A stretch of 64,000 nt of DNA. Source: Gracilaria domingensis. Taxonomy: Eukaryota > Rhodophyta > Florideophyceae > Gracilariales > Gracilariaceae. A program made the translations under genes and the position numbers. The DNA is taken from assembly GCA_022539475.1 (NCBI GenBank), contig VCMS01000025.1:186001-250000 (forward strand). The letters run 5' to 3'. Below the pieces are notes generated by a model. That model did no database searches. It saw nothing but the letters and a program-made list of their open reading frames with translations, and was not told the origin of the DNA. Of this stretch, positions 15,803-47,662 are shown in pieces; position 1 is the first letter of the stretch; the number at the start of each line of letters is the position of its first letter.

Positions 15803-16762
15803 ATGAAGGCTTACCGAAAACTCATTGCGAAGATATGGGGTTTGATATTGATTTTTACGCCATTGGGCGCCTCGCAGTGCATCGATGACAAGCCCATGAC
15901 GGTGTCCGGAACAGCAAGTTGTTATGGTCGACCTCTTCCTAACTCGAAAGTGTCGCTGAATCATCAGATAGGCTTCGTCGTAAACCGGATTGGAGCAACA
16001 TTTACCGATGCGGACGGGCATTTTTCAATAACTGGAAATGCTCTCGATACATCTCGTAACTCAGCATCTGAAGGATTGCTCATAGCGGGGAGCCTTCTGT
16101 TCTTTTTTCAATTCGATTACGCCGAACCTGGAACAAACGAACGAAGCTTCAGTGTTGGGCAATGGGAGCCTAGGTCAATAGACGGTCTTCAAGGAAAGAT
16201 AAACCTGGGTAATTTCAAAGCCGATTCCGATTCGTGCCAGCGCTACATGCTCTTCTACGACGTATGGCAGGATTTCATACGAAGGGGAGGAAGTACAGAA
16301 TTTAGATTCCATGTCTCCGCTGAGGAACGAATAACTTCAAAGGTGCCGTTCGCGGAGTGGGGGACTATCAGAATACCTTTTGGTTTTAAAATGACGGCAG
16401 AGATTGCGAAGCATGAATTCGGTCATGTCATTCGCAACATCTTCGACGGCGATAAGGCTCACTTCGAGGAAGACGTTGAGGCCTACGGAGGTTTTGAGCC
16501 CCATTCATGTGACGAACCGACGTCGTTGCAATTTGCTTTCAACGAAGGGTGGGCTAGTTTCTGGGCAGGCGAATGCCTCACCAGTGACGCAAACGGACCA
16601 AAGGATATTGAAGGTAATGTAGCTTCTGCTATTCGTGGTCTTCAAGTACGATGTGAAAGCGGAGACAAAGAAATGTTGGACGTGCTATTTAGACACCCGG
16701 GAGTGATTCACACGTACGAGGAGTTTGAAGCCGCTCATGAAAAGCTGTACAACTGCCCTTGA
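15803..16762 (+). CDS. Secreted protein with transthyretin-like domain and HExxH metalloprotease-like domain
   Basis: The product is 319 residues. The first ~24 residues form a signal peptide ending near LGASQC. Residues about 31-145 resemble the transthyretin-like (nematode TTL, PF01060-type) fold: VSGTASCYGRPLPNSKVSL, then ATFTDADGHFSITGNA. The C-terminal half has a zinc-protease signature HEFGH at 204-208 and a downstream NEGWASFW with Glu248, which could be the third ligand as in gluzincin peptidases. Cysteines are scattered as in extracellular proteins. A secreted peptidase or a binding protein derived from one is a reasonable reading. Substrate and partners are unknown. The two domain calls are by pattern and not by alignment. 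Confidence 0.7.
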   Translation: MKAYRKLIAKIWGLILIFTPLGASQCIDDKPMTVSGTASCYGRPLPNSKVSLNHQIGFVVNRIGATFTDADGHFSITGNALDTSRNSASEGLLIAGSLLFFFQFDYAEPGTNERSFSVGQWEPRSIDGLQGKINLGNFKADSDSCQRYMLFYDVWQDFIRRGGSTEFRFHVSAEERITSKVPFAEWGTIRIPFGFKMTAEIAKHEFGHVIRNIFDGDKAHFEEDVEAYGGFEPHSCDEPTSLQFAFNEGWASFWAGECLTSDANGPKDIEGNVASAIRGLQVRCESGDKEMLDVLFRHPGVIHTYEEFEAAHEKLYNCP

Positions 16763-27345: not shown

Positions 27346-29007
27346 TTAACCCTGTGCAGGAGGCAGATCAGGAGTGGGATTCGGCGGCACAGCAGAGTCC
27401 GGAGTAGGAGTGCTTGCACCTCCTGCAGCAGCAGTCGGTGGGACCTGAGCTTCCATCATAGACAACATACTGGCGGCAGTAATATCATCGTAGACACCAA
27501 GCTGAGCAGTACCGTCCAGGCCGTACTCACGCTGGAACTGCGATACGGCATTACGCGTACGAGGACCATACATTCCAACCACGCGACTATACATGGATTC
27601 ATTCATGTAGCCAAGATCGGTGAGCAGCTTCTGTAGAAACGCGACGCTAGGACCGCGCGAGCGGAGGGAAAGCGGGGCATTGGGGGCCTTAAGATCACCA
27701 AGACTAGCTTCCCAGAGATAAGTGAGCTTCTTGAACTCAATTCCCTCTTTTGAAACAGCAGGATCCTCATAACACTTGCAGCAAAGGTCATAATCATCAC
27801 GATTGGTGGCCTGGTAACGAACACCCACAATTGGACAAGCATCGCAGTTATCACATTCAACATTGACGTGAGTTTGGAATGGCATATTATTATCTGGCAT
27901 GGAAAACGCGGATTCGAACTCTGCTCCGACATCGAAAGGAAAGTCCATATTCCAAGGGATCTTACGCAAGATCTCCACAACAGCGGCATCATTCAGTGCA
28001 GTACGGAGAAGATGAGTGGTACGATTGGTAATATCGTCTCCAACAGAGGGACGAATAGACCTCTCGACAGTAGAAATCAAAGAATCAATGGCCTCGGGGG
28101 TGATAGAGCCACTCTGACCCAGATTAGCGATTAACCAGTTCCTCAAAGCAGGGAAGGCATTACGGGCAGCCTGGAAGGCTACGTTAGTGTTATCCGAGTT
28201 CAGAACCGCGTTCTTCAGTTGTTCAAAAGCATCACGGGTACTCTGCGAAACATTAGGTCCCTCCTGAGCAGCCATCATAGGAAACATGGAAGCAAAGAAA
28301 GGAGCGAGACCAGCACGACCAAACATTGCGTATGGGTACTCACCACGGCGGCGGCGATGATGACGTCCGCGGTGGTGACGAGGCGGGGGCGGCGGGTGAC
28401 GGAACGGCGGTGGAGTAGTAGTCCACGACGGCATTGGCGGAGGCTGGGGAGGTTGAGCAAAACCTTGGTGAGGATTGGCTCCTATATCCCTTAGAAAGCT
28501 GCCGACGGATTGAAGAATACGATCGACGTTGTACTGGGCAGCATCCATTGACGCTTCCGCGCGACGGAATGAGTCGCGCATATGAGGCGGGAAGAAGGGC
28601 GATGGGGTGGGGCCTGATGACTGCGGCTGCGGCTGAGGCTGCGGCTGAGGCTGCGGCTGCGGTTGAGCCGGTTGCGGCGTGGCTCGCGGCTGAGAGGGCT
28701 GCGGCTGCGGCTGCGGAGTGGGCTGCGGGGCGGGCAACGGGGTGGTCTGGGCCGCAGCATCGGCGTTAACGAAGAGACGCAGCAAGGTGATGGACTCACT
28801 CTCCGCAAGACGGAAGAGCTCGTTGAGCTCCGAGTCAGTGGAGACGGCGATATAATCACCCTCATTATCCTGGTAGGTGAGACTGAAAGGGGGGGACAGA
28901 CCAAACACGGACGCAATCTGATCCGAAAGATCGCTGAAAGACAGGGTGCTTTCAATGGAGAAGCGGCGCTTCACCTGGCCGTAGGCGGCCTTGACGGGCA
29001 GTTTCAT
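27346..29007 (-). CDS. PB1 / ZZ-like / peptidoglycan-binding-like multidomain protein A
   Basis: 553 residues from the ATG at 29007. Residues 1-85 are a PB1 domain with a basic patch (KRRF) and an OPCA acidic motif (YQDNEGDYIAVSTDSEL). Then comes a long Gln/Pro-repeat and Pro/His/Arg-rich linker and a helical segment around 230-340. Residues about 379-416 are a ZZ-type zinc finger in the HVNVECDNC...DLCCKC form; the usual KCxxC pair after RY is missing. Residues about 446-518 are a PG_binding_1-like helical domain (LRSRGPSVAFLQKLLTDLGY, MYGPRTRNAVSQFQREYGL). PB1 plus ZZ is the core of p62/NBR1 autophagy receptors, but no NBR1 four-Trp domain or UBA is present. The 392-residue paralogue lies just upstream. 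An oligomerising scaffold or receptor role is inferred. Confidence 0.85.
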   Translation of the reverse strand: MKLPVKAAYGQVKRRFSIESTLSFSDLSDQIASVFGLSPPFSLTYQDNEGDYIAVSTDSELNELFRLAESESITLLRLFVNADAAAQTTPLPAPQPTPQPQPQPSQPRATPQPAQPQPQPQPQPQPQPQSSGPTPSPFFPPHMRDSFRRAEASMDAAQYNVDRILQSVGSFLRDIGANPHQGFAQPPQPPPMPSWTTTPPPFRHPPPPPRHHRGRHHRRRRGEYPYAMFGRAGLAPFFASMFPMMAAQEGPNVSQSTRDAFEQLKNAVLNSDNTNVAFQAARNAFPALRNWLIANLGQSGSITPEAIDSLISTVERSIRPSVGDDITNRTTHLLRTALNDAAVVEILRKIPWNMDFPFDVGAEFESAFSMPDNNMPFQTHVNVECDNCDACPIVGVRYQATNRDDYDLCCKCYEDPAVSKEGIEFKKLTYLWEASLGDLKAPNAPLSLRSRGPSVAFLQKLLTDLGYMNESMYSRVVGMYGPRTRNAVSQFQREYGLDGTAQLGVYDDITAASMLSMMEAQVPPTAAAGGASTPTPDSAVPPNPTPDLPPAQG

Positions 29008-29604
29008 GGCGGCAGGCAGCTCTCCAGACAGAAGAGACAAGTAGAACGGGGTGGCACGAACGACCGGGCGAGAGCGAGGTGCAGCGGGAGCGCACCTAGC
29101 GCGCGACGGCGGCTTTTATGCTGACTGGCAAGCAGCAGCAGGCAGGCGCGGCGCCCCCCGAGGGAGCTGGCTGGAGGATGTACCATTGTGCATCAGAATG
29201 TTCGTGTAGACACAGGTGCATCTGTGCGAGAAGCTTCTTCAGACGCGCGACGGATGCACCTGCGCGCAGATTCAGGGCGAGAGCGCGGGCATGGGCGCGG
29301 GCAAGGGCGCCAGCAATGCGCGCGGTCGGACGACGCGGCCCCACGTGTGGCACTCGTGACGGCGCGATCGGCGCAGCCGGTAGCAGCTTCTAGACGCGCG
29401 CGCACGTGGCCGGGCGCCATTGGCCACGGCGCGCCAGCAAACGCGCGCATGGCAATCCGCACGCGGAAGAGATACAGCGCGCGCGCGAGAGCGCAGGCGC
29501 CGCGCGAGCCCCGCAAACCGATCAACCCTTGGTAACTTACCCAGGGGTAGAGTTAGGAACAGAGTCAGATATCGTCTACAAGTTAACAGGAGCGCCAACA
29601 AGCT
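29008..29604. promoter_or_regulatory. GC-rich promoter region of PB1-ZZ gene A
   Basis: No gene. The block is GC-rich and contains two CACGTG (G-box) cores at 29344-29349 and 29403-29408 and an inverted CCAAT-type ATTGG near 29419. It also holds the 3' end of the paralogous gene at its far side. Confidence 0.45.
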
Positions 29605-30783
29605 TTACGCCGCCATGGCCGTGCGGAAGCGCGTGCTATTGGCGCCGTCCATCGCCGCACACCGCGCCGCGCCGCGCCGTCCCTCCACCTCGTCGAACAG
29701 AGCGAGCAGCACGCTGCGGATCAGCGCCGTGTACACGCCCTGCTGCTCTCCCACGCGCTGCTCGCTCTCAAACAGCCGAATCGCCTCCCGCGTGTCGCCG
29801 CAGAACACGCCAGCGCGAAAGCGCCCGCGGCACACGTTCAGATAGCCCACCTTGTACAAAACGTACTGCAGGTGCATCACCCTCGGCCCCACATCGCCCA
29901 TTCGCAGCGGCGGCCGCGGCGCCTTAAATATGTCGCCGCACGTTTGCGCGTAGTCGTCCGTAGCCTCCCACGGGTGATCGTACACCGTGAAGCTCGTGGT
30001 GCACGCGTCCGGCAACGATCTTCTGCACCTCTCGCAAAAATTCACCGCCGCGCTGCTGCGGTAGCGCGTGCCCTCGATGGCCTGCACCTTGCACGCCGCG
30101 CAGCTCACGCCCGTGTGCGTGCAGAAGCACGCGCGCGCCGTCGACTCGGTGGCGCGATACACGCTGGCGTCGAACACGTCGTCCCTTTCCATCGACGCGG
30201 AACGCACGCTCTCTGTCAGCGCGCGCGAGCATTCCGGCACTTTGTTCTCCAGCGCGCGAGTCACGCACGAGTCGAACTGTGTTTGAAGCGGGTGCGCTCT
30301 CCGTCTCGCGCTCATCTGCACCGGTTGTGCTGGTGGTGGGGGCGGCGGCGGCGGCGGCGAGGGCGGCGGCGGCGACGACGACGCAGCGCTCACGCTGACG
30401 CTTGCGCAGTCGGCCAGTTCTCTCGAGGCGACCTCCCACGCGCCCGAAAGCGCCAGAAACACCGCTGCCGCCTCGCCGCGCGCGGCGGTGTCCACGACGG
30501 CGCGCAGAACAGTGGTCATGCATTGATCGACGGTGGGCAAATGCGACGACGAAACCAACACAAGCCTGCCGGCGGAGCGATCAGCGCTCAAGACAAGCTG
30601 GAGCGCAAAGTCGGACGACACGGCGGCCTGATCGCCGGAAGGCGTCTCGAACGCCAACACCAGCGCGGGACCATTCGGCGCCAGCGCGGCGGTGGCGCGC
30701 GACCAAACATGCCGCACAGAGCGCTCCGAGAGCGGCACGCGCACGGTGTGCTGCCCGTACGACACGGAAACGAACTGCAGCAT
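29605..30783 (-). CDS. PB1 / ZZ-like / peptidoglycan-binding-like multidomain protein B
   Basis: A 392-residue paralogue of the neighbouring gene in the same orientation, start ATG 30783. Residues 1-75 are a diverged PB1 domain (VSYGQHTVRVPLSERSV, then LVLAFETPSGDQAAVSSD in place of a clear OPCA motif). A poly-Pro/Ser linker follows. Residues about 223-254 are a ZZ-like finger (HTGVSCAAC...NFCERC), again without the KCxxC pair. Residues about 292-365 are the peptidoglycan-binding-like domain (LRMGDVGPRVMHLQYVLYKVGY, GDTREAIRLFE). Coding GC is far higher than in gene A and acidic PB1 residues are lost, so it may have a separate partner or be evolving fast. It probably arose by tandem duplication. 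Confidence 0.8.
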   Translation of the reverse strand: MLQFVSVSYGQHTVRVPLSERSVRHVWSRATAALAPNGPALVLAFETPSGDQAAVSSDFALQLVLSADRSAGRLVLVSSSHLPTVDQCMTTVLRAVVDTAARGEAAAVFLALSGAWEVASRELADCASVSVSAASSSPPPPSPPPPPPPPPAQPVQMSARRRAHPLQTQFDSCVTRALENKVPECSRALTESVRSASMERDDVFDASVYRATESTARACFCTHTGVSCAACKVQAIEGTRYRSSAAVNFCERCRRSLPDACTTSFTVYDHPWEATDDYAQTCGDIFKAPRPPLRMGDVGPRVMHLQYVLYKVGYLNVCRGRFRAGVFCGDTREAIRLFESEQRVGEQQGVYTALIRSVLLALFDEVEGRRGAARCAAMDGANSTRFRTAMAA

Positions 30784-32560
30784 GACGGCGGGCGGGCGGA
30801 AGCGCGACGAACTCAAACAGCAACAAAGGCCAAAGGCGGAAGCACGCAGCCGCGCAACAAGAGACGCTGCCGAGGCGCGCCAGCGCGCCCTCAACGGACG
30901 CGTCGCCATTTGCAGCCCGCGCGGGCGAGGTGCGCTGTGTCGGTGCTGAGTGCGCACGTGGCCACGTGCGCCGAGTTGATTGTTGCTCGCGCGTCTGGCG
31001 GCGCAGCGCAGCCGCCCATTGCGCGCCCTGTATGATACGCGCCGCGCTTGCGCGTGCGCCCCCCCGCCGCAGCACGCTCCGCGTACCGCCGCGATTGCAA
31101 TGCGGAATGGAACGGAGAAAACAACGGGTGGTGATGCTCTTCTGTCTTCCTCACGGCGCCGTCTTCATCAGTGTGCTCAGCGTTTCTCCGTGTGCCATGG
31201 CGCCACCGCTCCTTTTGAGCTGCAAAACCGTGCATTTCGTTTCTCTCACACTGCTTTTCGCGTTGCGGTAGCCGCCTGTGAGGCGGCTACAACCCTGCGA
31301 TGCAGATTTCTTACGGACAGCATAAACGGCTTCCAAGCACGCTCAATGCGGCAACTGCGCGAATCTCTGTCCGACGCCAAATGCGCTCAGCATGTGGTAT
31401 GAAAAAGGATGTGGAACACGCTTCACGGGCGGTTGCAAGCACTAAATAGCTCACCGATCGGAATTACGATACTTGTATATGAACTCTATGGTGAAGTTGG
31501 TACTCTGTATAACACGCGCGAATTGGAACAACCTTTAATGTGAAGATTAGTAGCAAGAGCAGTGTGGGATACTAAACTCCGTGGTTTTAATCGCATTCGC
31601 TTGAAAACTCGAGATTGTGCGTGAACAGCATGCGATATGCTGTTGTCGTTGGCGTATGCTTTCAACGCATTTCGTTCCATTCAATGAAACTAATTCCTCA
31701 ACTTTGAATGCCTTCAAAGCACATGAGCGCTTCGAATATGCAGCGTTAGCGCTGTTCTTTGTTTGTTCGTTCTGTGACGGGCATCGGCTTGACTCGTGCG
31801 ACGCCTATCGACTGTGATGCACGTCACACTTATAGGATGCCATACTGTGGCGTTAGGTGGCGTTCGTTGTAACTTGGATTCAGAAACGGTCCAGACGATA
31901 ACAATTCCTGTTGATGACAATGGTACAGTATCCTTTGTACATCGCGTGCATTTGCTCCAACAAGTGCACAAGTGTTCAGCACTGCTTAGCCTACTGAATT
32001 GTCCCATAGGGGAAACAAATCAATTTTGTTGATTTCGCTCATGATACCCTTTTGAAATGGATGTTCTGCTATACCCTTGGTTGGGGGAGACAGTGGTAGT
32101 GTCCGACAAGCACGTCGCGTAAAGGCAAGGCCTGCGCTGGAGGGACCAGAGCCATTGTACCTATGGTTGCGAGCTGCCGAATGTGCGAGAGGTCGACTCT
32201 TTCAGGCACAGCTCAGATCTCCACGTATCCGCTTTTCTTTGGGGCCATGGGAGCGCAAATCTCTTCCTGCCCGCGAGCCCTTTAAAAGAGACAGCTCTCC
32301 CCCAGCCCAGGCGATGGCTTTGAAGGAGAGAGCCAACCAAGCTTGCTTTCCGGCCGTCTGCTGTTCAACCTGAATGAAAGGTCAAATAACTGTCGTTTCC
32401 CTGTTTTCTGGAGCAACTCAATCCTTGCTTTCTGCCGTTTCCGTGTCTTTCATGTGACTCTTTTCGGTCGATAACAGCGCTGCCCGGGTCAGTAGGGCGA
32501 ACTAATCTGCGACTGCACCCGTCCTGCTTCCGCGATAGTACCGTGATTGCATCATAAAAG
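30784..32560. other. Intergenic region with G-box palindrome and a strong hairpin
   Basis: The GC-rich first 300 bp contain a 20-bp perfect palindrome at 30952-30971 with two CACGTG cores and probably form the promoter of the paralogue B gene. A perfect 9-bp stem hairpin (GTAGCCGCC / GGCGGCTAC) lies at 31268-31290. Frames further along show no recognisable protein. Confidence 0.5.
30952..30971. promoter_or_regulatory. Double G-box perfect palindrome
   Basis: The central CACGTGGCCACGTG is flanked symmetrically by GCG and CGC. CACGTG is the classic bZIP/bHLH core. It sits 169 bp upstream of the start of PB1-ZZ gene B. Confidence 0.5.
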
Positions 32561-33457: not shown

Positions 33458-34427
33458 AAGGGGATTCGTTGAATTGGTGATCACTCTTGTCTATTTTTAT
33501 TGATGCTCATGATGAAGTTTATAATATTATAAAAAATGACATTTTCAGAAAATGACGATAGGTGTTTTGAGTGGGCGCTATGGCAGTGCTCTGCACCATG
33601 ACGATCTTTGAGAACGCAAGAAAGAACGCATATCTTAGATATTATCTAGGGTGATTTGAGCCTTGCTTTACAGCGCTTGCAGAGCGAGCACGAAATTTTC
33701 GTCTTTCGGGGCGGTATCTAATGGGAACATGTGGAAATTGTACTGGTACGAAAGGTACCGACGATGCCGACGGTATCCCAGTACAACGGCATCTTGATGA
33801 ACCCACACTGCCCCATCGAACGCCCCACAGGGGCGTTCTACACCGTTTCAATTTGAATTAAACACATACATGTAGTACATTCTCTAGTAGAGAATCTCTA
33901 CCATACACAGGGGGTATTTAATTCAAACTGAGAGGGGATATGACGCCCCTGTGGGCCGTTGTATACCCTTTCAGTTTGAATTCTGTACACCCCTGTTGGT
34001 GGAAGGAGCATGTACTACTTACTCTCTTTTGGAGGTTACCTTCTACCTTATCCTCAATATCCCAACTTCGTGGTACGAAGGCCCACAGGGCCGTACTGGT
34101 GTTTGCACTGCAAATTTTGGAGACTGCAAATTGCTGTGCAACACTGTTTTTCAAAATTTGACTTTGGCGCTCTTTGAAAATTCAAAAGTGTAGTACGCCC
34201 GACGGCAGCATCCGTGGACTCGATAGTGCCGAGGCTCGACTGTGTGTCCTCATGAAGCACAATTTGGCGAGCGAGCGAGCGAATCCCGCCCACGCGTAAT
34301 CACGCAACAGTGTTAAGTTAACACCTTCTTCCTGCGTACGAAAACAAAACAGAGCTTTCACCGCTAATTCGAATGTTCTAGTTTTCCAACTAGACCCACT
34401 GGATATACTTTGTCAGTCAAATCTGTG
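33458..34427. other. Intergenic region with foldback repeat
   Basis: Contains the foldback element at 33823-33955 and related shorter copies up to about 34110. The last 250 bp precede the condensin gene and presumably hold its promoter. Confidence 0.6.
33823..33955. repeat. Imperfect foldback (MITE-like) element
   Basis: Arms begin CCCCACAGGGGCGT on one side and end ACGCCCCTGTGGG on the other. Both arms carry a TTTGAATTAAA block at matching distance, and the midpoint is the palindrome ATTCTCTAGTAGAGAAT at 33879-33895. No coding capacity. A third arm-like copy follows at about 33955-34020. Confidence 0.7.
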
Positions 34428-36755
34428 ATGAAAGTTGCTACGCCCCCCAAAGACATTACGCCGAGCGCTGCGCGTCGCCGCCGTCGATTGAGTAATTTCC
34501 ACATCCATGGGCAAACTCCTCAGAACGTCACCCCTGGCCCTCGACGAAATTCGTGGACCCCTGCACGTCACCTTTCACGAACTCCGACTAAAACACCACG
34601 AATAACCCCATCGAGGACCCCAGGAAAAACACCGACGTCGTATAGACGTCGTTCTTCAATCGCACAACGAATTAGCTCACACACACCGCGCGCGTCTGTG
34701 GGTCGAGCAAGGGCTCCCGCTCTTTCCCGAGAGGAAATCGCGCATATGTATTCAGCGACTATTAAGTTGTGTCAAGACAATAAGATCAATGCGCGAAACA
34801 CATGGACGTTAAATCTCATTGATTACATGTCCATGCTGGTGAAAACTGACACCGCCGAAAACCAAGTGGCGAGAACGGTGTGTTTCGAGGATGAGATCGG
34901 GCCCCCCGGTAATCTTCCAACCGGAACTAACTTTCAATTAGCAGGCGTCACGTTAGATGCAGGAGTCAAAATCTACTGCTCTCGCGTCGATTCAGTCCAT
35001 ACAAATGCTTTCAAAGTATTGGGTGGCCTATCAAGAAGCGGAAACCAAGAGGGCTCAGATGCGTCTGAAGAAGCAAGAGAAGGAGAGCAGGAAGGAGATA
35101 CAAGAAAATCTAGAAGGAATGGGAGAAGGGCTGGTAATGTCACCTTGGAGACCAATCTTGGAAACATTACGTCCCAGAGACTAGAAACAGACCTTGCTGT
35201 CGACCCACTCTTTCAGAAAATGTCTGCTGCTTTTGACGAAGGGGGAGCTTCAGGAATGCTAATGAACAATTTGCCCATAGGGCCGAAAGCACAGATTATT
35301 TTCGATAGTGGTGAAACAGCGGATTACCTTGTCCTTATGGACGATGAGGAACAACAGAATGAGGGAGGCAGCTCGAGTAACATCACCTACGACATTTCGA
35401 AATGGTTACCAGAGCAGCCAGTAACAGAACATGACACTATATGCGGACCATTTCTTCGTTATTTTGAGTCCAAGCAGGCATCTGCAGCCGCTCGCAACCA
35501 GTCTGCAGGTGCCAAAAGTGGAAGTCATGATGCTGCTGGCGCTAACAACGATGATTCTGATCTGCTGGAGCACAATTTTGGCTACGACGATGGTGACATG
35601 GAAGACAGTGCTGCCATAGGGATGCTACCAACACCCGAGATGCCATTCGATGTACCCGAAGGTAATGACCACGATGACGTTACGTTGAGTGTGAATGTCG
35701 ATCATAACCAACGACCACTGGAAGGCGGTTCCATGGCAGTTCGGCGCGGAAGTGTGGATCTTGTAGAAGCTGGTGTCACGCTTGTGGAAAACCCGGACTA
35801 TTCATACTTCGACAACAATGCGTTAGTGGGATGGGCTGGTCCAACGCATTGGACCTTCAGAGCTACCAGTACATCTACTGCGGGAGGCGAAAATGGTCAG
35901 AAACGTCCGAAGAAGAGAACTAGAAAGCCGAGAGACGCGAATGCCATGTTGTTGGATTTTTCACTGGATGCTCCAGAGATTGATTTCGCCTCACAGTTTG
36001 CTCCAGCGTCAAGGGAATCTTTAATTCAGATGTCAGCTTCTGTCCGAAACGGATTCTCAGAGAAGAAAGTGACCTTACCAGAAGATCACCATCTTTCCAT
36101 TGAGGCTCTTTGCTCCTTATTTCTCAGACCGAATACGTATGTCAAACCAAACGGCAGTTTGGCAAGTAAGGTTGGGAAAGAATCTGATGTATCTGAAGGC
36201 CAAAACTGGTATGACTTTGATAATCCAGGAGATAGGGAGAATTTCGTTGGCGGAGATCCAAACGTCTTGGAAGACTTCTCGCAGGACCCCTTCGAAGACA
36301 GCTTTGAGCCCGATGATGATGTCGGCATGGAACTTCTAGCTGAACCTACTCGGGTTGAAAAGATTGATATCAATTATGCGAAGGTGGCGAAGAAAGTAGA
36401 CGTACGGAAATTGAAGGCTGGAATCTGGACAAAGCTTTGCGGTGACCAGATAGATGAAGATCTTGGGCCTGATGCAGAGAATGGAGAAAACTACAGCCTC
36501 ACGTCGGGTACTGCATCCGACTCTTTACCGGATGTTAGAAAGGGTGCATCGCAACGGCTCCAAACAATAGTTTCAAACATTCCATCTATTGTGCCGCCGA
36601 CATCGCTACCAGATGTATCTCTGCCCTACGTGTTTATATGCCTGCTCCATCTAGCAAATGAGAAGCAGCTAAGAATAACGCAAACAGAAGATAAGTCTTT
36701 GACAGATCTCATTGTAACGGCTGATGGACAGGGTGAAAAGGAGGTTGATTCCTGA
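34428..36755 (+). CDS. Condensin complex non-SMC subunit CAP-H/Brn1 (kleisin)
   Basis: The 775-residue protein starts at the ATG at 34428; the frame upstream opens with TTG. It belongs to the Barren/CAP-H family: an N-terminal Ser/Thr/Pro-rich, SPxR-like segment with several TP sites that could be Cdk targets; then IKLCQDNKINARNTWTLNLID; then LDAGVKIYCSRVDSVHTN and KVLGGL typical of the family. The middle is acidic with a WAGPTHW block, and the C-terminus has the winged-helix-like TSLPDVSLPYVFICLLHLANEKQL that contacts SMC4. CAP-H closes the SMC2/SMC4 ring and is needed for mitotic chromosome compaction. It is complete and of normal length. Confidence 0.95.
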   Translation: MKVATPPKDITPSAARRRRRLSNFHIHGQTPQNVTPGPRRNSWTPARHLSRTPTKTPRITPSRTPGKTPTSYRRRSSIAQRISSHTPRASVGRARAPALSREEIAHMYSATIKLCQDNKINARNTWTLNLIDYMSMLVKTDTAENQVARTVCFEDEIGPPGNLPTGTNFQLAGVTLDAGVKIYCSRVDSVHTNAFKVLGGLSRSGNQEGSDASEEAREGEQEGDTRKSRRNGRRAGNVTLETNLGNITSQRLETDLAVDPLFQKMSAAFDEGGASGMLMNNLPIGPKAQIIFDSGETADYLVLMDDEEQQNEGGSSSNITYDISKWLPEQPVTEHDTICGPFLRYFESKQASAAARNQSAGAKSGSHDAAGANNDDSDLLEHNFGYDDGDMEDSAAIGMLPTPEMPFDVPEGNDHDDVTLSVNVDHNQRPLEGGSMAVRRGSVDLVEAGVTLVENPDYSYFDNNALVGWAGPTHWTFRATSTSTAGGENGQKRPKKRTRKPRDANAMLLDFSLDAPEIDFASQFAPASRESLIQMSASVRNGFSEKKVTLPEDHHLSIEALCSLFLRPNTYVKPNGSLASKVGKESDVSEGQNWYDFDNPGDRENFVGGDPNVLEDFSQDPFEDSFEPDDDVGMELLAEPTRVEKIDINYAKVAKKVDVRKLKAGIWTKLCGDQIDEDLGPDAENGENYSLTSGTASDSLPDVRKGASQRLQTIVSNIPSIVPPTSLPDVSLPYVFICLLHLANEKQLRITQTEDKSLTDLIVTADGQGEKEVDS

Positions 36756-38401: not shown

Positions 38402-39778
38402 TCAAAGCTTTTGGGCTTCGCCTCGAACACAACTCAACACCGCATTGCGAAAAGCCTCGTCTCCGTCCATTCTACGCAGCACCGAAAGCTGCCTCTCAAA
38501 GCTATCATGTTCATTGATATCCTCCGAACAAAGCAACAGAGCCGCGCCTTCCACCGGCGACCCTTCAAACGAGCACTCCACCTCCGTCTCCGCCCCCTGC
38601 GCCCTGTTGTCTCCCGCAACGCGAAAGCGTTGTTGCCATTTTTCATCAATGAAGTTCTTCATGCGATAAACCCAAGTACCCTTGAACGCCAACCCATACT
38701 TTGTGCCTATTCCCCTCCCATCTCCCGTCGACAACAGCGACAAGAACGACGCTTGCGGCACGAACTCGCTCAGTTTCGATGAGTTGTTCAGCCGTTGTTG
38801 TAGATTGTGCGTCAAAACCGGCCCCTCTCTCACCGCGTACACGCCCGCCTTTGGTGGAAAGTTGTCTCCAAACAGCCCATCAAACGAGACACAATCGCCA
38901 GCCGCAAACACATCGCTCTGCCCCCTACATCTGAGACTAGCATCAACCAAAATCCAACCCTGCTCACAAGTTTGCAGGCCAAACTTGGTACAAACGTCAT
39001 GCGCAGCAGCGCCGGTTGCCAGCACCACCATGTCATAACTGAGCTTTGTATCATCATCCAAGCGCACGACGCCGGCGTCCACGGACAGTACATCGCGTCC
39101 AACCTGCACATGGATGGCGCGCTTTCTACACTCGGCCGCGACGGCGGCGCCGGTGGCGCGCCCAAACTGCGACGAGATGGCGTCGTGTTTCGATACTATG
39201 GTGAGCATCACGTCGCCTACAGACCGCTTCAACCGTGCTTCGAGCGCGAACGCCAGTTCCACACCGGCCGCGCCGGCACCCACGACGACGACGTGCGCGC
39301 ATTTGAGACCCGCTTCGTCTGCCAATCGCTCAAAGTTACACACTGCGCTCTCCAGGCGCAGAATCGGGCGTGTGCGCACAGCGAGGGGCAAAGCACTCTG
39401 CTCCGACACAAGCGACGTCTGCACCACGTCTCTCGTGCGACTTCCTACATTAATCGACAGCACGTCGTAATGCAGCGAGCACTGTATGGTGGAGTGCGGC
39501 GCGTGGAAAAACACGCGCTTGTTGTGCGGATCGATTCGCGTCACTTTGCCCTGCACGAAGTGGAAGCCGTGCGCGTCGCACAGCGGCTGAAGCTGAACGA
39601 GCGAGTTGCGATGCGGGACGAGTGCGGCAATCACGGCGGGCAGCATGCCGCTGTACACGGCGACCGCCGCCTCGGAGATGAGCATGCATTGCGTAGCGCG
39701 CGGAGGTCGCAAAGCGGTGACGACCTGCACATGAGAGTGGCCGCCTCCGACAAGCAGCAGCACCTTGCGCTCCGCCAT
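38402..39778 (-). CDS. FAD-dependent pyridine nucleotide oxidoreductase, SelD-associated type
   Basis: The 458-residue protein has an N-terminal FAD dinucleotide fold opening LLLVGGGHSHVQVV, a second NAD(P)H fold VVVVGAGAAGVELAFALE, and the C-terminal FAD contact VFAAGDCVSF. The HSH after the glycine loop is typical of the oxidoreductase fused to selenide, water dikinase in cyanobacteria and some algae. The family's closing phrase is present (VYRMKNFIDEKWQQRF), but no SelD domain follows; the protein continues with about 80 low-similarity residues. It probably reduces an unknown substrate with NAD(P)H. No clear targeting peptide. The gene diverges from the desaturase gene with only 513 bp between starts. 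Confidence 0.85.
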   Translation of the reverse strand: MAERKVLLLVGGGHSHVQVVTALRPPRATQCMLISEAAVAVYSGMLPAVIAALVPHRNSLVQLQPLCDAHGFHFVQGKVTRIDPHNKRVFFHAPHSTIQCSLHYDVLSINVGSRTRDVVQTSLVSEQSALPLAVRTRPILRLESAVCNFERLADEAGLKCAHVVVVGAGAAGVELAFALEARLKRSVGDVMLTIVSKHDAISSQFGRATGAAVAAECRKRAIHVQVGRDVLSVDAGVVRLDDDTKLSYDMVVLATGAAAHDVCTKFGLQTCEQGWILVDASLRCRGQSDVFAAGDCVSFDGLFGDNFPPKAGVYAVREGPVLTHNLQQRLNNSSKLSEFVPQASFLSLLSTGDGRGIGTKYGLAFKGTWVYRMKNFIDEKWQQRFRVAGDNRAQGAETEVECSFEGSPVEGAALLLCSEDINEHDSFERQLSVLRRMDGDEAFRNAVLSCVRGEAQKL

Positions 39779-40291
39779 GTCGGCCACGGGCAGCGCGCGC
39801 GGGCGCGGGAGCGCGCGCCATGGCGCAGCCGCCCCGCCCCTCCCTTCAACGGCGGAGGCGCGCGCGCGGCCTCGGTTGTCGCCGCGTCACGGCGCGCATT
39901 GCTCGTTGCGCGCGCGTGCAAGCCACTTGCATCTCCCACGCGCGCCCGCGCCACGTGGCCACGCGCCGGCGCGTGCGCCATCACGCCGCTGCTGCGCGGC
40001 TGTGGGAATGGAGCCGTTACGTTTCGCGCGTCGATTTGGCGCGATGTGATTGGGCGCGGCGATACAAGTTGGCTCGATTCACCTCGCTTGCTTGACAGCG
40101 CCGCGTTGCTCGTCGTGTATCTTATCGCACGCCCCCCCACCCCCGGGCCATTGTCGCCACGCCGCCGCGCGTGGCGCGGCTGCTCACTACGCACCGTTCT
40201 TCGGCTGTACTGTTATCTCGCTGCGCGCGTGCGAGTTGCCTTTACGTCGAGACTTTTGTTTGGTCTTTTGCTGCGGAAAGCTGCTGTCGAT
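39779..40291. promoter_or_regulatory. GC-rich divergent promoter of the FAD oxidoreductase and desaturase genes
   Basis: The frame of the desaturase stays open through this block on the plus strand, but the translation is low-complexity and antisense to the neighbouring gene further up. Within it lie CCGCCCCGCCCC, a CACGTG core at 39952-39957, and a TTTGGCGCG (E2F-like) followed by an ATTGG box near 40035-40050. Confidence 0.5.
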
Positions 40292-41359
40292 ATGGGTAGA
40301 GGGGGATCTTCTGAAGAGGGGCTGGTGCGAAGTAATCTGCTTTCCACCGAGGATGCGGAGGCCATAGTGCATAGGAAGAGTGGCGCGAAGCACCCCCATG
40401 CCGATCGACGAGCAGAGATTTTGAACAAGCACCCTGAGGTGAAGAACCTTTTCGGTACCTATCGTGGAACTGCTGTTTATTCCGCCGTGCTTGTATCCTT
40501 TCAGATTGCTTTTGCCGTGTTGGTCACTCACAACCTTCCTGTGTGGCTTGCTGTCGTCCTAAGCTACACAGTCGGAGCCGTCGTCGACCATGCCTTATGG
40601 GTGCTGATTCACGATGCCACGCACAATCTTGTCTTCAAGAGTGTGGCGAAGAATCGATTCGTGTTGCTGTTGTGCAACATTCCTCACGTATTCCCATCCG
40701 CCATGATGTTTCGTTACTACCACATTCTTCATCACATTGAGCTCAATCGCGCCCACAAAGATCCAGACGTTCCGTTTGAATGGGAGGCCAAATTCATCGG
40801 CAACTCACCGTTTAGGAAGTCCATCTGGCTTGCCTTCTTCTTCATCGTTCAAGCTCTAAGGACTGCCTTTTATACCTATCGAATTCCAAAAGGAACAGAG
40901 CTTGCGTGGATGGCCTTTAATTGGCTTCTCAATGTCGCCGTCCTTTCCACCGTTGTATCCTATTTTGGATGGGCTCCGCTAATGTTTCTGGCGTTTTCAT
41001 CCATTTGCAGCATTGGCTTGCATCCGTTGGGTGCTCGTTGGATTCAGGAACATTATCCTACCCAACCTTTTCAGGCTACTTATTCATACTATGGCATTGC
41101 CAATCGCTTTGCGTTTGCAATTGGTTATCATGTTGAGCATCATGACTTTCCGTCCGTACCTTGGAACAAGCTCGCTGTGCTGAAGGCTACAGCACCAGAG
41201 TATTATGATACCTTGTTTGCATATACCAGTTACACAGAGCTACTCAAGGATTTCATTTTTGAACGGAAATGGAGTTTGTCTAACCGTTTCGAGGTAGAAC
41301 GGGAAATGTCCGAGAACGCATCTCCAACAGCTGATGCTTTCACGAAGAAAGAACGATAA
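40292..41359 (+). CDS. Sphingolipid delta-4 desaturase (DES/DEGS family)
   Basis: The product is 355 residues from the ATG at 40292. The N-terminal lipid-desaturase segment has HPHADRRAEILNKHPEVKNLFG, typical of DES1. The three His boxes are HDATH (107-111), HILHH (144-148) and HVEHH (280-284). Several hydrophobic spans lie between them. The family inserts the 4,5-trans double bond in dihydroceramide in the ER membrane, giving ceramide. Some members also hydroxylate at C4. The length is close to the animal and plant enzymes. Apparent coding sequence upstream of 40292 is antisense to the divergent gene and is not included. Confidence 0.93.
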   Translation: MGRGGSSEEGLVRSNLLSTEDAEAIVHRKSGAKHPHADRRAEILNKHPEVKNLFGTYRGTAVYSAVLVSFQIAFAVLVTHNLPVWLAVVLSYTVGAVVDHALWVLIHDATHNLVFKSVAKNRFVLLLCNIPHVFPSAMMFRYYHILHHIELNRAHKDPDVPFEWEAKFIGNSPFRKSIWLAFFFIVQALRTAFYTYRIPKGTELAWMAFNWLLNVAVLSTVVSYFGWAPLMFLAFSSICSIGLHPLGARWIQEHYPTQPFQATYSYYGIANRFAFAIGYHVEHHDFPSVPWNKLAVLKATAPEYYDTLFAYTSYTELLKDFIFERKWSLSNRFEVEREMSENASPTADAFTKKER

Positions 41360-42366: not shown

Positions 42367-45300
42367 TCACGTATTGTTTGCATTGTAGTCCTCAGAACAA
42401 AACAACTGAGCGACGGCTTTGCTAATCTTCGGTCCAATCCGAGATCCTCGTGGATTCAGCAACGCTTCCTTTTCCTGCATACTGTTCTTCTCTTGGTATG
42501 CTTGATAGAGAGATTGGGGGGTCCTATACCCAAGTTTTACAATAGTCTGAGCCTTTCCAATTCCAAGCCCTTTCACGCCGATAAGCTGCAGCATGAAAAG
42601 CTCCTCTAGAGTAGTCTTTCTTTTTAACCGATCTATCTGCTTACTCCACTCTGAGAATTCTTGTCTTCCTTGGACAATTTCTGACCTGTTGAGCTGATTA
42701 TACTTTCGCTGCAGCCTTCTCAAAATGCAACCATAAAAGTGTACAGTATCGTTGACATCCTTTGTTCTTTTCACATACACATCTGCACACACTTCGAGTT
42801 CAGCGAGTTTGCTGTGCATACGAGTTTGACTATAAACTCGCGGATTGGCTTTCATATCTCCTTCAAGAACGAGAATAGGATTAGCAATGTTTGAATTAAG
42901 CAGGAGATATGACTGCTTAGGAATTCGCCCGTCGTCCATAGATCCTCCAAAGTCGCTAATAGTTTTTCGTTCTAAAACGTAGTCCAGTACAAACTCAGAC
43001 GCGTCATTGAATCGAGCAAGAAACAAGGCGTCACCGCACGGCAAAGGTCGAACCTCACACATAATATTTTTTGTTCTCAGTAAGTTTGGAAATGATGCCG
43101 TAGCCTGACTCTTATTCCGCTGCAGTCGTTCATTTGCATCTATTACTAGGATTATCTCACATTCTTCATGCCGGAGCGCATCGTTCGAGTCCAACCCAAC
43201 GCTGATTACCGGGTCTTGACTTCTTTCCAGCGGCATTGAATCAAGATCGATGACCTGGTTCGGGGCAGCAGACTGTTCATTACTTTGAGATGGGCGTAAT
43301 TCTTTTTGTCCGAGTGAATTGTGATCTCGTACATTACCGACTATTGTATCAGTTAACGACTGGGACTTGCGAAGGTCTTTTGCACATCCGACATTTGCAG
43401 GCATCACAGGCTGTTCGCCCCATGTTCCTTGAGAGCCCCGATCATGGATTGTATTCCGAGAGGGGTCTTCATCGTCATCGCTTCCGACATATATTGGCTC
43501 GTCATGAATCAATCGAGCACGGTTGATTCCTGACGCTGAGCCAGATTCTCTGTTAGGTTTTCCAACACCTAAGGTCGCCTCGGGACTACCAATGGACTCT
43601 TTTATGGCGTTGTTTGGTGAAAAGCTGTCGTCAAGCAAAATGACTGTGCTCTGATCGCGAGATTCCTGATGTGGCAGACAAGCAGCAGCATGTACTGGAG
43701 CGGTCTGACCTCCGTCTTCATTAACGAGATCAACTATCTCAATCCCTTCCTCATCTACACCAGACCGAACAAAGTTTCTGGCTATGCCGGATTCATAAGA
43801 TCGCAATTTTTGGGCTCCTCCGAAGGACTTGTGAATTTCTTCGTCATCTGAGTCGATGTTATAGACGTCATTTGAACGATGTATGTCATTGTTCATGGAT
43901 TCGTCTATCCCATCCATTAGATCGATGACATCATTGTCTTCAACTGTATGAGATGTTGATGGATGCTGGTTGCCTTGCATACTAGAATTGCGCTCGACGG
44001 TCTTCTCCCCCGTCTCTTTCCTGATTCGCTCTGCTTCAAAATTCGACAACTCGACATTGTCGTCGGGGTCCTCTTCAGTGCGCCCAAGGGTCGTCAACAC
44101 AAGGTCCAAGGGTTGCGGGCTTCTATTTTCCCCGTCTTCGGCTTCCTGCACGGCGCGCAAAGTTTCTCTCAAACACCTATTCAGGGCATCGTCAGTTTTC
44201 GGAAGCTTTCCTTGATCGAACATTTCACCCACGATCATTATCATATCTTGTCTTGATTCCCCTTCGTTTTCTAGCTTTTCGATGACCTTACATATTCTTT
44301 GTAGCTGAGCTTCGGATGGTTTCCTTCGACGCTTGTTGCGGTTCCTACTAGGAGCGAGTGAAAATGTGTTAGTCGAATGTATTTCGGGGTGGCTAGGTTC
44401 TTGCTGATTAGCGTTTTCTCTCAGTGAACCATTTTCCGCAGGATTGTCCGCTTGAGCACCTGGAATGCAATTGTGCAAAACAGATTTCTTGCCTGACGAG
44501 TTTGAGACTGTGCCGAATTCTTCTCCTGTAGCATACTTTCTCGCCAAGCGTGTCCCACATTGCTTGTCGGCGGCACTAGAACCCTTTGCTTCTGATGACC
44601 GCACAGAATCAGCAACGCGGGAGGCAATTCGTGATCCCCGAGACTCGGTAGGCTTATTCGCATGCAAAAAGTTCTGGTGTCCCTGAGAATAACCTGATTC
44701 ACGATTGAATTCCTCTTGCAACCTCTGGGCTAGTAGAAGGTCATGATTTTGTTGTTCAGATATTCTGTCGGCAACAGGGACATTTGCGTTAGAATAGTCT
44801 TGCTCCTTTTCTGTTCTCCGCTCATCTTCGTGGGGAGGTATTGGGGACGGCCCGGGACTAGTTCTTGTCTGGTCTCTACCCTTACTTGAAGGCAAGGCTG
44901 ATGAGGAAACTGAGACGACACATACCTCATCTTGGTCTTCCTCGCGGACTCCAGAAGACATTCTTGTAGGCAAAGGAACAGCAATGGGTTCTAATCCGCC
45001 TTCGCCATCATAATTTTGCTGCTCACTTCTTTTAAGCTCTTCATATTGTTTCAAGCATGTTGTAGCTGTATCCAGTCCTTTGTCAGTAAGTCTAAACACG
45101 AGCGGTCGCCCGCGCTTCAATACGAGACCTTTGGGGATTAGTTGCTTATTCATGCTAGACCATCCGTCGTACCATGACTCTCGTTCCGAATTGTGAGCAC
45201 GGAGAACCTTTTCGACAGTGTACCGTTGAGCACGCTTACATATATCTTCTTTTTCCAACTCACGAATATCCTCATCTTCTAAGGCCTTGAGCATGGCTAT

Positions 45301-45861
45301 GAGTAGCGCTGCAACCCCGGTTGCTACACCAGGAACATACTCCTTCTTGGATCTTTTCCGTGGGGTCCCTTCTCGTGACCTGTCTCTTTTCTGCGTTGGT
45401 GTCGACATGGCCGGAGATTGTTCAACGGGATTAGAGGCATTGGCTTGCTCCACGTCGACGACGGGAGAACCTACCGCCCTTTGCTCTGTAGTATTACCTG
45501 TTGCACGCCCACCTCCGCGTCCTCGACCTCGTCCGCGTCCCCGGCCTCGTCCCCTACCGCGAGAAGTGGGTGTGGAAGTTTGGGCTTTCCTCCGTACTTC
45601 TAAAATGTGTTCAGGAACGCCATCTGGAAAAGGGGGATTCTCGTTCAGATACGTTTGGATGATATTCCCGATGTAGTTGCCAATGCCGTTGATCTGTTCA
45701 GCATCTGCTTTCGTTAGAATGATATCTTTGCATTTCTTGACGTTTCTGATAGCTTTTTTAAGTGCTGCTCTGGGCCAGTCACCTGCTGCGTTGTTCTCAA
45801 GCTCCGTTTGGAGCGCATCCACAATCCCTTGATTTACACATCCCCTTTTTCGAGGAGCCAT
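42367..45861 (-). CDS. MUS81: MUS81 structure-specific endonuclease, unusually long
   Basis: The protein has 1164 residues from the ATG at 45861, about twice the usual length. Residues 1-85 form the N-terminal helix-hairpin-helix (VKKCKDIILTKADAEQINGIGNYIG). A RGRGRGRG tract follows at about 101-114, then the winged-helix region around 190-300 (ALLIAMLKALED, KGLVLKRGRPLVFRLTDKG). About 500 acidic, low-complexity residues are inserted before the ERCC4 nuclease domain. The catalytic motif is ERKTISD at 964-970, and IDANER stands where DNRE is expected. A second HhH (LIGVKGLGIGKAQTIV) ends the protein. With EME1 the enzyme cuts branched recombination and replication intermediates in the nucleus. 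No frameshift is seen. Confidence 0.93.
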   Translation of the reverse strand: MAPRKRGCVNQGIVDALQTELENNAAGDWPRAALKKAIRNVKKCKDIILTKADAEQINGIGNYIGNIIQTYLNENPPFPDGVPEHILEVRRKAQTSTPTSRGRGRGRGRGRGRGRGGGRATGNTTEQRAVGSPVVDVEQANASNPVEQSPAMSTPTQKRDRSREGTPRKRSKKEYVPGVATGVAALLIAMLKALEDEDIRELEKEDICKRAQRYTVEKVLRAHNSERESWYDGWSSMNKQLIPKGLVLKRGRPLVFRLTDKGLDTATTCLKQYEELKRSEQQNYDGEGGLEPIAVPLPTRMSSGVREEDQDEVCVVSVSSSALPSSKGRDQTRTSPGPSPIPPHEDERRTEKEQDYSNANVPVADRISEQQNHDLLLAQRLQEEFNRESGYSQGHQNFLHANKPTESRGSRIASRVADSVRSSEAKGSSAADKQCGTRLARKYATGEEFGTVSNSSGKKSVLHNCIPGAQADNPAENGSLRENANQQEPSHPEIHSTNTFSLAPSRNRNKRRRKPSEAQLQRICKVIEKLENEGESRQDMIMIVGEMFDQGKLPKTDDALNRCLRETLRAVQEAEDGENRSPQPLDLVLTTLGRTEEDPDDNVELSNFEAERIRKETGEKTVERNSSMQGNQHPSTSHTVEDNDVIDLMDGIDESMNNDIHRSNDVYNIDSDDEEIHKSFGGAQKLRSYESGIARNFVRSGVDEEGIEIVDLVNEDGGQTAPVHAAACLPHQESRDQSTVILLDDSFSPNNAIKESIGSPEATLGVGKPNRESGSASGINRARLIHDEPIYVGSDDDEDPSRNTIHDRGSQGTWGEQPVMPANVGCAKDLRKSQSLTDTIVGNVRDHNSLGQKELRPSQSNEQSAAPNQVIDLDSMPLERSQDPVISVGLDSNDALRHEECEIILVIDANERLQRNKSQATASFPNLLRTKNIMCEVRPLPCGDALFLARFNDASEFVLDYVLERKTISDFGGSMDDGRIPKQSYLLLNSNIANPILVLEGDMKANPRVYSQTRMHSKLAELEVCADVYVKRTKDVNDTVHFYGCILRRLQRKYNQLNRSEIVQGRQEFSEWSKQIDRLKRKTTLEELFMLQLIGVKGLGIGKAQTIVKLGYRTPQSLYQAYQEKNSMQEKEALLNPRGSRIGPKISKAVAQLFCSEDYNANNT

Positions 45862-47662
45862 TCTTTTGCGGGCGACGCAGGTTGAGATACTGGTATGTGT
45901 AAGAGCGAAGATTACTGCATAAGAGATGGGTTTCACTTGAGAACGCCCTAGTTCTGGAACTGAGAACCATACACTGCCATGCTTCTTATCCTATCCTTTT
46001 GGATACTAAGCTCAGGCGTGATATGCTGCAGATAGGTGAATCTGCTGAGAGACGATTCCCCTAAGAGACGAATCCGAGGTCTACTGCTACATTTCCAGGT
46101 CCTGGAGCGAAGAGCTCTCCGGCCACGCGCGAGCATTGTCGCATTGAACTTGTTGGCTGCATTCATTTTCGAAAATTTGGCGGGAATCGAGTATTTGTCT
46201 CAAAAAGCAGTTCGCTCGAGAAAGGGTGTGGACAGTCTCCATGAAGACTTGCCCGCAGCATGACCTTTCATAGCACCGCGTATCGCCTATGGTGACTTTC
46301 GAGACAGAACATGAAAAAAAAGTTACAAGGATACCACACATTGTAAGGTTACGACAGAAGGCTTCTCGTAGAAGAATGCAAAGCCATGGTTCCTCGCTGG
46401 TTAGCTAGATACAATATAAACCATTTATAAGGCAGGGTGGAAAACTGTTGCCCAGAAGACAATGAAATGGGACGTGCTACTCGCCTCCCCGCAGTTTGCC
46501 TGGGTCTAAATAACATCCGCATAGATTGTTAGCCTTTCTGATGTGGGAGAGCTTTCTCCAGAGAAAGTTCCCCCTCAACCTCGAGTTTCTTGTCCTCATG
46601 AAAGGAAAGGAGGGCTCATGTGATACGCCTTCTCGTGGTGTGCCTGGCTTTTCCTTGGGAAAGCGAAACGGATTGCGTTCGGGTCTCCAAAGGAGACTGT
46701 CACTTTTCGAGTCGAGGATGAAGGAAAACGAAAAAAATAGGGACCTAGAGAAGCCTGTCGCCGTTGTATAGAAAGTACAAGAGCGGCAAAATACTTGAAT
46801 GAAAGAGCTCTTCTTAAGAACAAAGTTTGAGTCTATGATGAGGGAGAACAAATCCAAAAGGCCACATTTCTGGTGTGAGCTGTTGCAGTCTGCAGCAGTG
46901 CAACGCTATGTGTTTGGACCACAAATGACAGCCCTTTCTAATGGTTCCTCTACAAGGAGAGAACGCCATATGTAAAGTTTTCTCTTCGGTACCGTTCGAC
47001 TAACGCGTCGAGAAGACACGAAAGTTCCGCACTCGCAAAGCCCCGGAAACTGGAGTTAGCTACTTTGACAGTAGAATATCCCATCAGTTCTCAGCCTTCT
47101 TTGCGATAGAAAACCAGTTGCAGATAGTTTTACATTAGCCCCGTAGTTAGGGGCTATCGTCCACATTAAAGAAGTGAAGTTTTACTTCACCAAGTAAAAC
47201 ATCAGGAGTAAATTTGTGATATCCATGATTCAAAGAGACAGGGATCATCTCGATGGTGGTTTCTCGTCAAAGCTTAACATTTAAGAATATTAAAACGTTC
47301 AAGAGCGTTAAGAATGTACACTCCTCGAAAATCTTGGTGTTGACACCCGTGTCAGCATTCCAAGGGTTTATAGGTTTATAGTCTATGCGCGGTACTGCTA
47401 GAGCAGGCTCACGGGGACGAGCGTGACACTGAGCCCTAGGACAACCAGGCCAGAGTACTACTTTTGCTGCAACATACTGTCGGCTGTGACTGACGTGGCA
47501 GAAAACATCGATGTTTTCAAATCTCTTTTCTTGTCGAATCGTTTGTGAGGCCAGGCAAGTACCGACGGTACCGTAAGGTGGATAAAGCTAATCAGGAATT
47601 ACTCCAGCCCAACCACGGCAGCAATCTTATCTTAGGACAGTCAAATGGAAGTAATCTTTATT
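45862..47662. other. Gene-poor interval with a decayed repeat and stem-loops
   Basis: Holds copy 2 of the dispersed repeat at about 46603-46694 with further broken coiled-coil-like peptide to about 46900, and a cluster of perfect hairpins around 47130-47380. No intact gene recognised. Confidence 0.55.
46603..46900 (+). pseudogene. Degenerate repeat copy 2 with decayed coding sequence
   Basis: The first ~90 bases match the copy at 15321-15410. The following plus-strand frame reads charged helical peptide (FESRMKENEKNRDLEKP, then MKELFLRTKFESMMREN) broken by stops. It may come from the same family as the relic at 17.1-18.2 kb. Confidence 0.45.

Follow-up and report, generated by a model that had tools for sequence, protein, structure and literature searches.

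Two adjoining minus-strand genes, here called A and B, lie in a stretch of the genome of the red alga Gracilaria domingensis (contig VCMS01000025.1, or C25, positions 186001-250000). This 64,000-nucleotide stretch is the window in whose numbering positions are given; genome searches cover the whole assembly (77.9 Mb, 680 contigs). Gene A encodes a PB1 domain, a ZZ finger and a PG_binding_1 domain in that order, all above the curated Pfam cut-offs by which domains were called (Table 1). In B, the ZZ and PG domains fall below these cut-offs and the PB1 is visible only through comparison with A. The original prediction for this locus, that both genes share the order PB1, proline-rich linker, ZZ and PG_binding_1, thus stands for A and only in part for B. 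A Pfam scan with E up to 10 found neither a UBA nor an FW (N_BRCA1_IG) domain in either protein, in agreement with the expectation that the UBA is absent and that PG_binding_1 forms the C-terminus. An NCBIfam scan returned eight rows (six for A, two for B), none of which reached its cut-off.

Searching the genome with A gave B as the sole convincing relative (E 3.7e-8), the other five matches being at E 0.005 or worse. In an alignment of the two, the part of B that runs from the ZZ through the linker to the PG domain is still clearly similar to A, and the linkers before the PG domain have Trp-Glu-Ala and Lys-Ala-Pro motifs in common. Judged by sequence, B is a real and strongly diverged tandem paralogue of A, as had been proposed. 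The two are not one gene split by an assembly error, since a ZZ-like and a PG-like part are present in each open reading frame (ORF). The third-position GC content of B is 0.83, against 0.43-0.56 in A and four neighbouring genes, and the region 28001-32000 of the window is a GC-rich patch (0.60-0.62). A scan for bacterial-type promoters and terminators upstream of B gave no match, which is not meaningful for a eukaryote.

Table 1. Features of the A/B gene pair, in window positions
Feature	Position	Strand	Description
Gene A	27346..29007	-	553 aa, stop codon within the interval; PB1, Pro/Gln-rich linker, helices, ZZ and PG_binding_1
PB1 of A	28765..28998	-	residues 4-81; Pfam E 1.8e-15; K6, R14, R15, D47/E49/D51
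Pro/Gln-rich linker of A	28588..28752	-	about residues 86-140; direct reading
Helical region of A	27964..28245	-	about residues 255-348; no known family
ZZ of A	27763..27870	-	residues 380-415; Pfam E 2.1e-9; 37.5 bits, cut-off 21.4
Conserved ZZ-PG linker of A	27670..27720	-	around shared WEA and KAP motifs; A/B alignment
PG_binding_1 of A	27469..27657	-	residues 451-513; Pfam E 6.2e-10; 39.6 bits, cut-off 23
Gene B	29605..30783	-	392 aa, stop codon within the interval; strongly diverged tandem paralogue that precedes A in the direction of transcription
PB1-like N-terminus of B	30538..30783	-	residues 1-82; few of the charged interaction residues kept
Poly-Pro linker of B	30322..30384	-	about residues 134-154; direct reading
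ZZ-like finger of B	30022..30120	-	residues 222-254; Pfam E 0.016, 15.5 bits, below cut-off
PG_binding_1-like region of B	29755..29889	-	residues 299-343; Pfam E 0.0099, 16.5 bits, below cut-off

AlphaFold2 models were built from a two-row alignment consisting of A and B only. Over residues 1-80 of A, the predicted local distance difference test (pLDDT) score is 72-80 by blocks of ten, giving a usable PB1. Foldseek placed this model closest to the PB1 domain of Arabidopsis NBR1 (AtNBR1; 6tgs, E 3.5e-7, 31% identity), with the filament structure 6tgn at rank 5; the 43 matches at E 0.001 or better are mostly PB1 domains, together with some FERM domains, which have the common ubiquitin-like fold. 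Residues K6, R14, R15, D47, E49 and D51 of A align with K11, R19, R20, D60, D62 and D64 of AtNBR1, which are filament contacts in that protein, self-polymerisation being tied to the double arginine (PMC6978347, in part). For a further acid of AtNBR1, D73, the candidates in A are E60 and E63. The PB1 of A thus has the basic lysine, the double arginine and the OPCA acids that define the type A/B domains of p62/SQSTM1 and NBR1. The counterparts in B, where the alignment is ungapped, are S6, V14, R15, T47, S49, D51 and A60, so that only R15 and D51 are kept of the six. From these residues we conclude that the PB1 of A is of type A/B with a polymerisation-type pattern and that B has lost most of that pattern. 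The proposal of a scaffold with PB1 and ZZ like that of p62 and NBR1 is supported for A by its Pfam domains, its polymer-type PB1 residues and its best match by fold.

Beyond the PB1, the models add little. The helical region of A is modelled as helices at residues 255-270, 274-299, 304-318, 327-338 and 341-348 with pLDDT of 26-61 (blocks of ten), and residues 252-342 have no Pfam match. The model of B contains nothing confident (mean pLDDT 36.4) and gave no Foldseek match at E 0.001 or better. The check by profile and structure that had been suggested for both proteins upheld the PB1 (by profile and fold), the ZZ and the PG_binding_1 (both by profile) of A, and did not do so for B.

The best PDB matches of the ZZ finger of A are chains of HERC2, PRT1 and p62. 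The finger retains the cysteine pairs of zinc site 1 and the acids of the N-degron pocket. Of the five pocket residues named for p62 (PMC6197226, in part), four are identical in A (D386, R397, D405 and D407, corresponding to D129, R139, D147 and D149), and the fifth, N132, is replaced by Asp389. In B the arginine is kept, D129 has become Ala, N132 Lys and D147 Asn, and the position of D149 holds Glu in one alignment and a gap in another. The genome contains an arginyltransferase gene (ATE_C, E 5.6e-43), so arginylated N-degrons could exist in this alga.

The resemblance of A to known receptors is thus partial. Like plant AtNBR1, A has an N-terminal type A/B PB1 with a double arginine followed by a ZZ finger; unlike AtNBR1 and fission yeast Nbr1, it has no FW, no UBA and no usual second zinc site, it ends in PG_binding_1, and its genome gave no Atg8 match. 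It shares with p62/SQSTM1 the PB1, the ZZ and most of the N-degron pocket, and differs from it in lacking the UBA and second zinc site and in the long stretch, proline-rich and helical, that separates its PB1 from its ZZ. p62/SQSTM1 is moreover reported in a review to be confined to metazoans, whereas A and B are from a red alga. The NBR1 family has been defined by an FW domain plus PB1 or ZZ (PMC9582228, in part). Only A has the PB1 and ZZ above the Pfam cut-offs, and the FW is missing; by this published definition and its sequence, A is not an NBR1.

Core ATG genes, or autophagy itself, are reported to be missing from red algae (PMC11449223 and PMC9582228, both in part). Our searches of the genome for ATG8, ATG9 and ATG3/10 gave no match; these were six-frame, unspliced searches with no eukaryotic positive control, so absence is not shown. 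The FW domain of NBR1 likewise had no match under the same conditions. The identical six-frame method did recover PB1, ZZ and ATE in this genome. Given the reports and these non-matches, the test for Atg8 binding that had been suggested for A would probably lack a partner. Fission yeast Nbr1 offers a precedent for working without the autophagy machinery: its cargo, bound by its ZZ domains, is delivered through the endosomal sorting complexes required for transport (ESCRTs) (PMC9582228, in part).

Taking these features together, we tentatively favour a role for gene A as a cytosolic, Atg8-independent, NBR1/p62-like polymerising cargo scaffold, a reading to which we give somewhat less than even odds. 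The PB1 of A, with its conserved interface residues, would assemble head to tail and so form filaments or condensates. The ZZ finger and the C-terminal PG_binding_1-like domain would hang off the polymer, bind cargo or partners and gain avidity from it. Delivery without Atg8 might occur through ESCRTs and microautophagy to the vacuole, for which the fission yeast Nbr1 pathway is the model (PMC9582228), or cargo might be sequestered before proteasomal degradation. Gene B, with its ZZ-linker-PG part kept and its PB1 charges and acidic ZZ pocket mostly lost, could bind the partner of A through the PG part while remaining outside the polymer, and would then be a non-polymerising partner or a competitor. 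A bolder version, which we think improbable, is that red algae kept a polymerising receptor of the NBR1/p62 type after the loss of ATG genes, that a domain of the peptidoglycan-binding type rewired it to Atg8-free clearance or sensing, and that the second paralogue caps it or competes with it. Since red algae reportedly lack core autophagy genes, the presence here of PB1 and ZZ in one protein, together with polymer-type residues, offers a way to test whether the scaffolds of cargo receptors have outlasted autophagy and by which route they would then deliver cargo.

Several points weigh against such a scaffold. FW and UBA are missing in A, and the model of A outside the PB1 is of low confidence. 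The cysteine pair of zinc site 2 is absent in both A and B. For the histidines of this site, A has none after its last cysteine pair, and B lacks the usual pair and has one histidine before the conserved tryptophan; neither protein therefore has the Cys4 and Cys2His2 sites of a two-zinc ZZ domain. A published comparison of ZZ structures finds strict conservation of the zinc ligands and a role for both zincs in the p62 pocket (PMC6098011, in part). Because the second zinc site is gone and both zincs hold the p62 pocket, N-degron binding by A is doubtful; from its sequence we consider it possible and not likely. The call of a cytosolic location comes from reading the N-terminus, and the ATG non-matches lack their positive control. 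Delivery of A cargo by ESCRTs is proposed by analogy with fission yeast. No relatives from other genomes were obtained. Searches of viral contigs with A (three pattern stretches) and with the A/B alignment (71 stretches), and of a collection of genome contigs with the A/B alignment (36 stretches), yielded none that was confirmed, and tblastn of phages with A gave no match. The collections searched are of viruses, bacteria and archaea, so this result says little about conservation.

The altered zinc site is not peculiar to the pair. Eight ZZ stretches in the genome pass E 0.001, including A and excluding B, and the second cysteine pair is kept in five of them (L002, L003, L004, L006 and L008). 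It is not kept in A, L005 and L007, which means that ZZ variants of this kind exist outside the A/B pair. L005 and L007, which we take to be SWI3/RSC8-like, resemble A and B in the alteration of the usual second zinc site; they differ in keeping the third cysteine, which A and B lack, and in their protein context. L002, L003 and L004 are ZZ copies that resemble one another, each on a contig of its own (C52, C177 and C123). Frames of about 500 aa are open in L002 and L003, and L004 has no start-to-stop ORF of at least 150 aa in 3126 bases.

The PB1 evidence also allows a signalling scaffold, in which the PB1 of A would pair with that of another protein, as in aPKC-Par6 and kinase PB1 pairs, while its ZZ and PG domains bring a client. 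In a search of PDB sequences with A, the PB1 of aPKC zeta (1.8e-6) came ahead of AtNBR1 (1.6e-5), and aPKC iota chains hold ranks 2-3 in the Foldseek list. Both results count against the cargo scaffold too, and on their account descent of A from NBR1 is not established. A potential partner for the PB1 of A exists in the only other PB1 protein found in the genome, an 827-aa protein (L017; contig C194, ORF 307-2790) that reads by eye as CBS-PB1-TPR, with CBS-type repeats at the N-terminus, TPR-like repeats at the C-terminus and an acidic OPCA-like stretch. The double arginine of A, however, is the feature that accompanies self-polymerisation in a published comparison of type A/B PB1 domains (PMC6978347, in part), and A has no catalytic domain, kinase or other, in the Pfam scan. 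We regard this alternative as fairly unlikely.

In another alternative, the PG_binding_1 domain would be a cytosolic sensor of bacterial or plastid peptidoglycan, or of a related glycan, and the PB1 polymer would pass on a signal or lead to clearance. Besides its Pfam score, the domain of A shows a weak match to spore_SleB (E 0.00012, 22 bits against a model cut-off of 236.5). A phmmer search against the PDB gave no strong match; credible bacterial wall proteins appear at E 0.017 or worse. SAKe repeat proteins, the top PDB matches, were treated as chance, each domain scoring below 6 bits in four alignments. A Pfam family name does not establish a ligand, however, and PF01471 also includes members that do not bind peptidoglycan, such as the prodomains of matrix metalloproteases. 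In bacterial wall hydrolases the domain accompanies a wall enzyme; in A, where the Pfam scan found no wall-enzyme domain, its companions are PB1 and ZZ. The corresponding part of B, though it resembles that of A, stays below the cut-off even when the C-terminal part is scanned alone (E 0.0034), and the Foldseek matches of B to SleC and TtsA have E values no better than 1.4. Peptidoglycan synthesis is also not known from red algal plastids. Peptidoglycan binding by the A/B domain is thus unsupported by its sequence, and the suggested receptor for glycan, plastid-derived or bacterial material found no ligand-binding support; we judge glycan sensing quite improbable. Two further genes with PG_binding_1 were found in the genome (L018, 922-1827, minus strand; L019, 1336-2250, plus strand). 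They are similar to each other, of about 300 aa, and besides PG_binding_1 they show hydrophobic stretches at the N-terminus and towards the C-terminus, so that their products look secreted or anchored; A, by reading, has no hydrophobic N-terminus.

The losses in B of most interface and pocket residues, with the usual zinc site 2 gone in both proteins, could mean that the pair is what remains, in decay and now functionless, of an ancestral NBR1. Set against this are an open frame of 553 codons with three domains above cut-off in A, and one of 392 codons in B whose ZZ-linker-PG part is similar to A; the chance of such a relic seems slighter still. An ordinary Atg8-dependent receptor with the UBA swapped for another cargo domain, which the PB1 and ZZ might suggest, was dropped as the leading idea after the ATG8/9/3/10 non-matches, obtained with no positive control, and the reviews of red algae, and is very improbable.

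For the polymerising cargo scaffold that we prefer, what appears new is the order of PB1, ZZ and PG_binding_1, which is not described in the papers listed by our searches; combinations of PB1 and ZZ are known. A eukaryote-wide survey reports the latter in scattered combinations (PMC7051960, in part), and its main text makes no mention of peptidoglycan, red algae or red algal, rhodophyte or Chondrus. Among the papers listed, judged by title and the part of the abstract shown and with most subscription journals outside the range, none is about a PB1-ZZ-PG_binding_1 protein. Two leads from the literature were set aside: an NBR1-like ubiquitin fusion concerns Bigelowiella and not red algae, and the red algal passages of a paper on ARF origin concern a domain other than PB1.

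The window holds 33 ORFs of at least 200 aa, and ten neighbours were scanned with Pfam in addition to A and B. Ordinary nuclear genes near the pair include those for condensin subunit 2 (34410-36752, plus strand) and an ERCC4/MUS81-like nuclease (42370-45936, minus strand). The ORF at 38807-41356 (plus strand) encodes a fatty acid desaturase that carries the N-terminal motif of sphingolipid delta-4 desaturases, ahead of which the ORF extends by about 500 aa, and a 319-aa ORF (15803-16759, plus strand) has a weak transthyretin-like (TTR-52) match below cut-off. Elsewhere in the assembly, the phycocyanin beta chain encoded on contig C680 is closest to the red algal PDB chains 5y6p and 2bv8 (the latter from Gracilaria chilensis) and identical to neither. 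The contig has eight full-length and two partial phycobiliprotein matches, as expected of a phycobilisome-bearing red alga.

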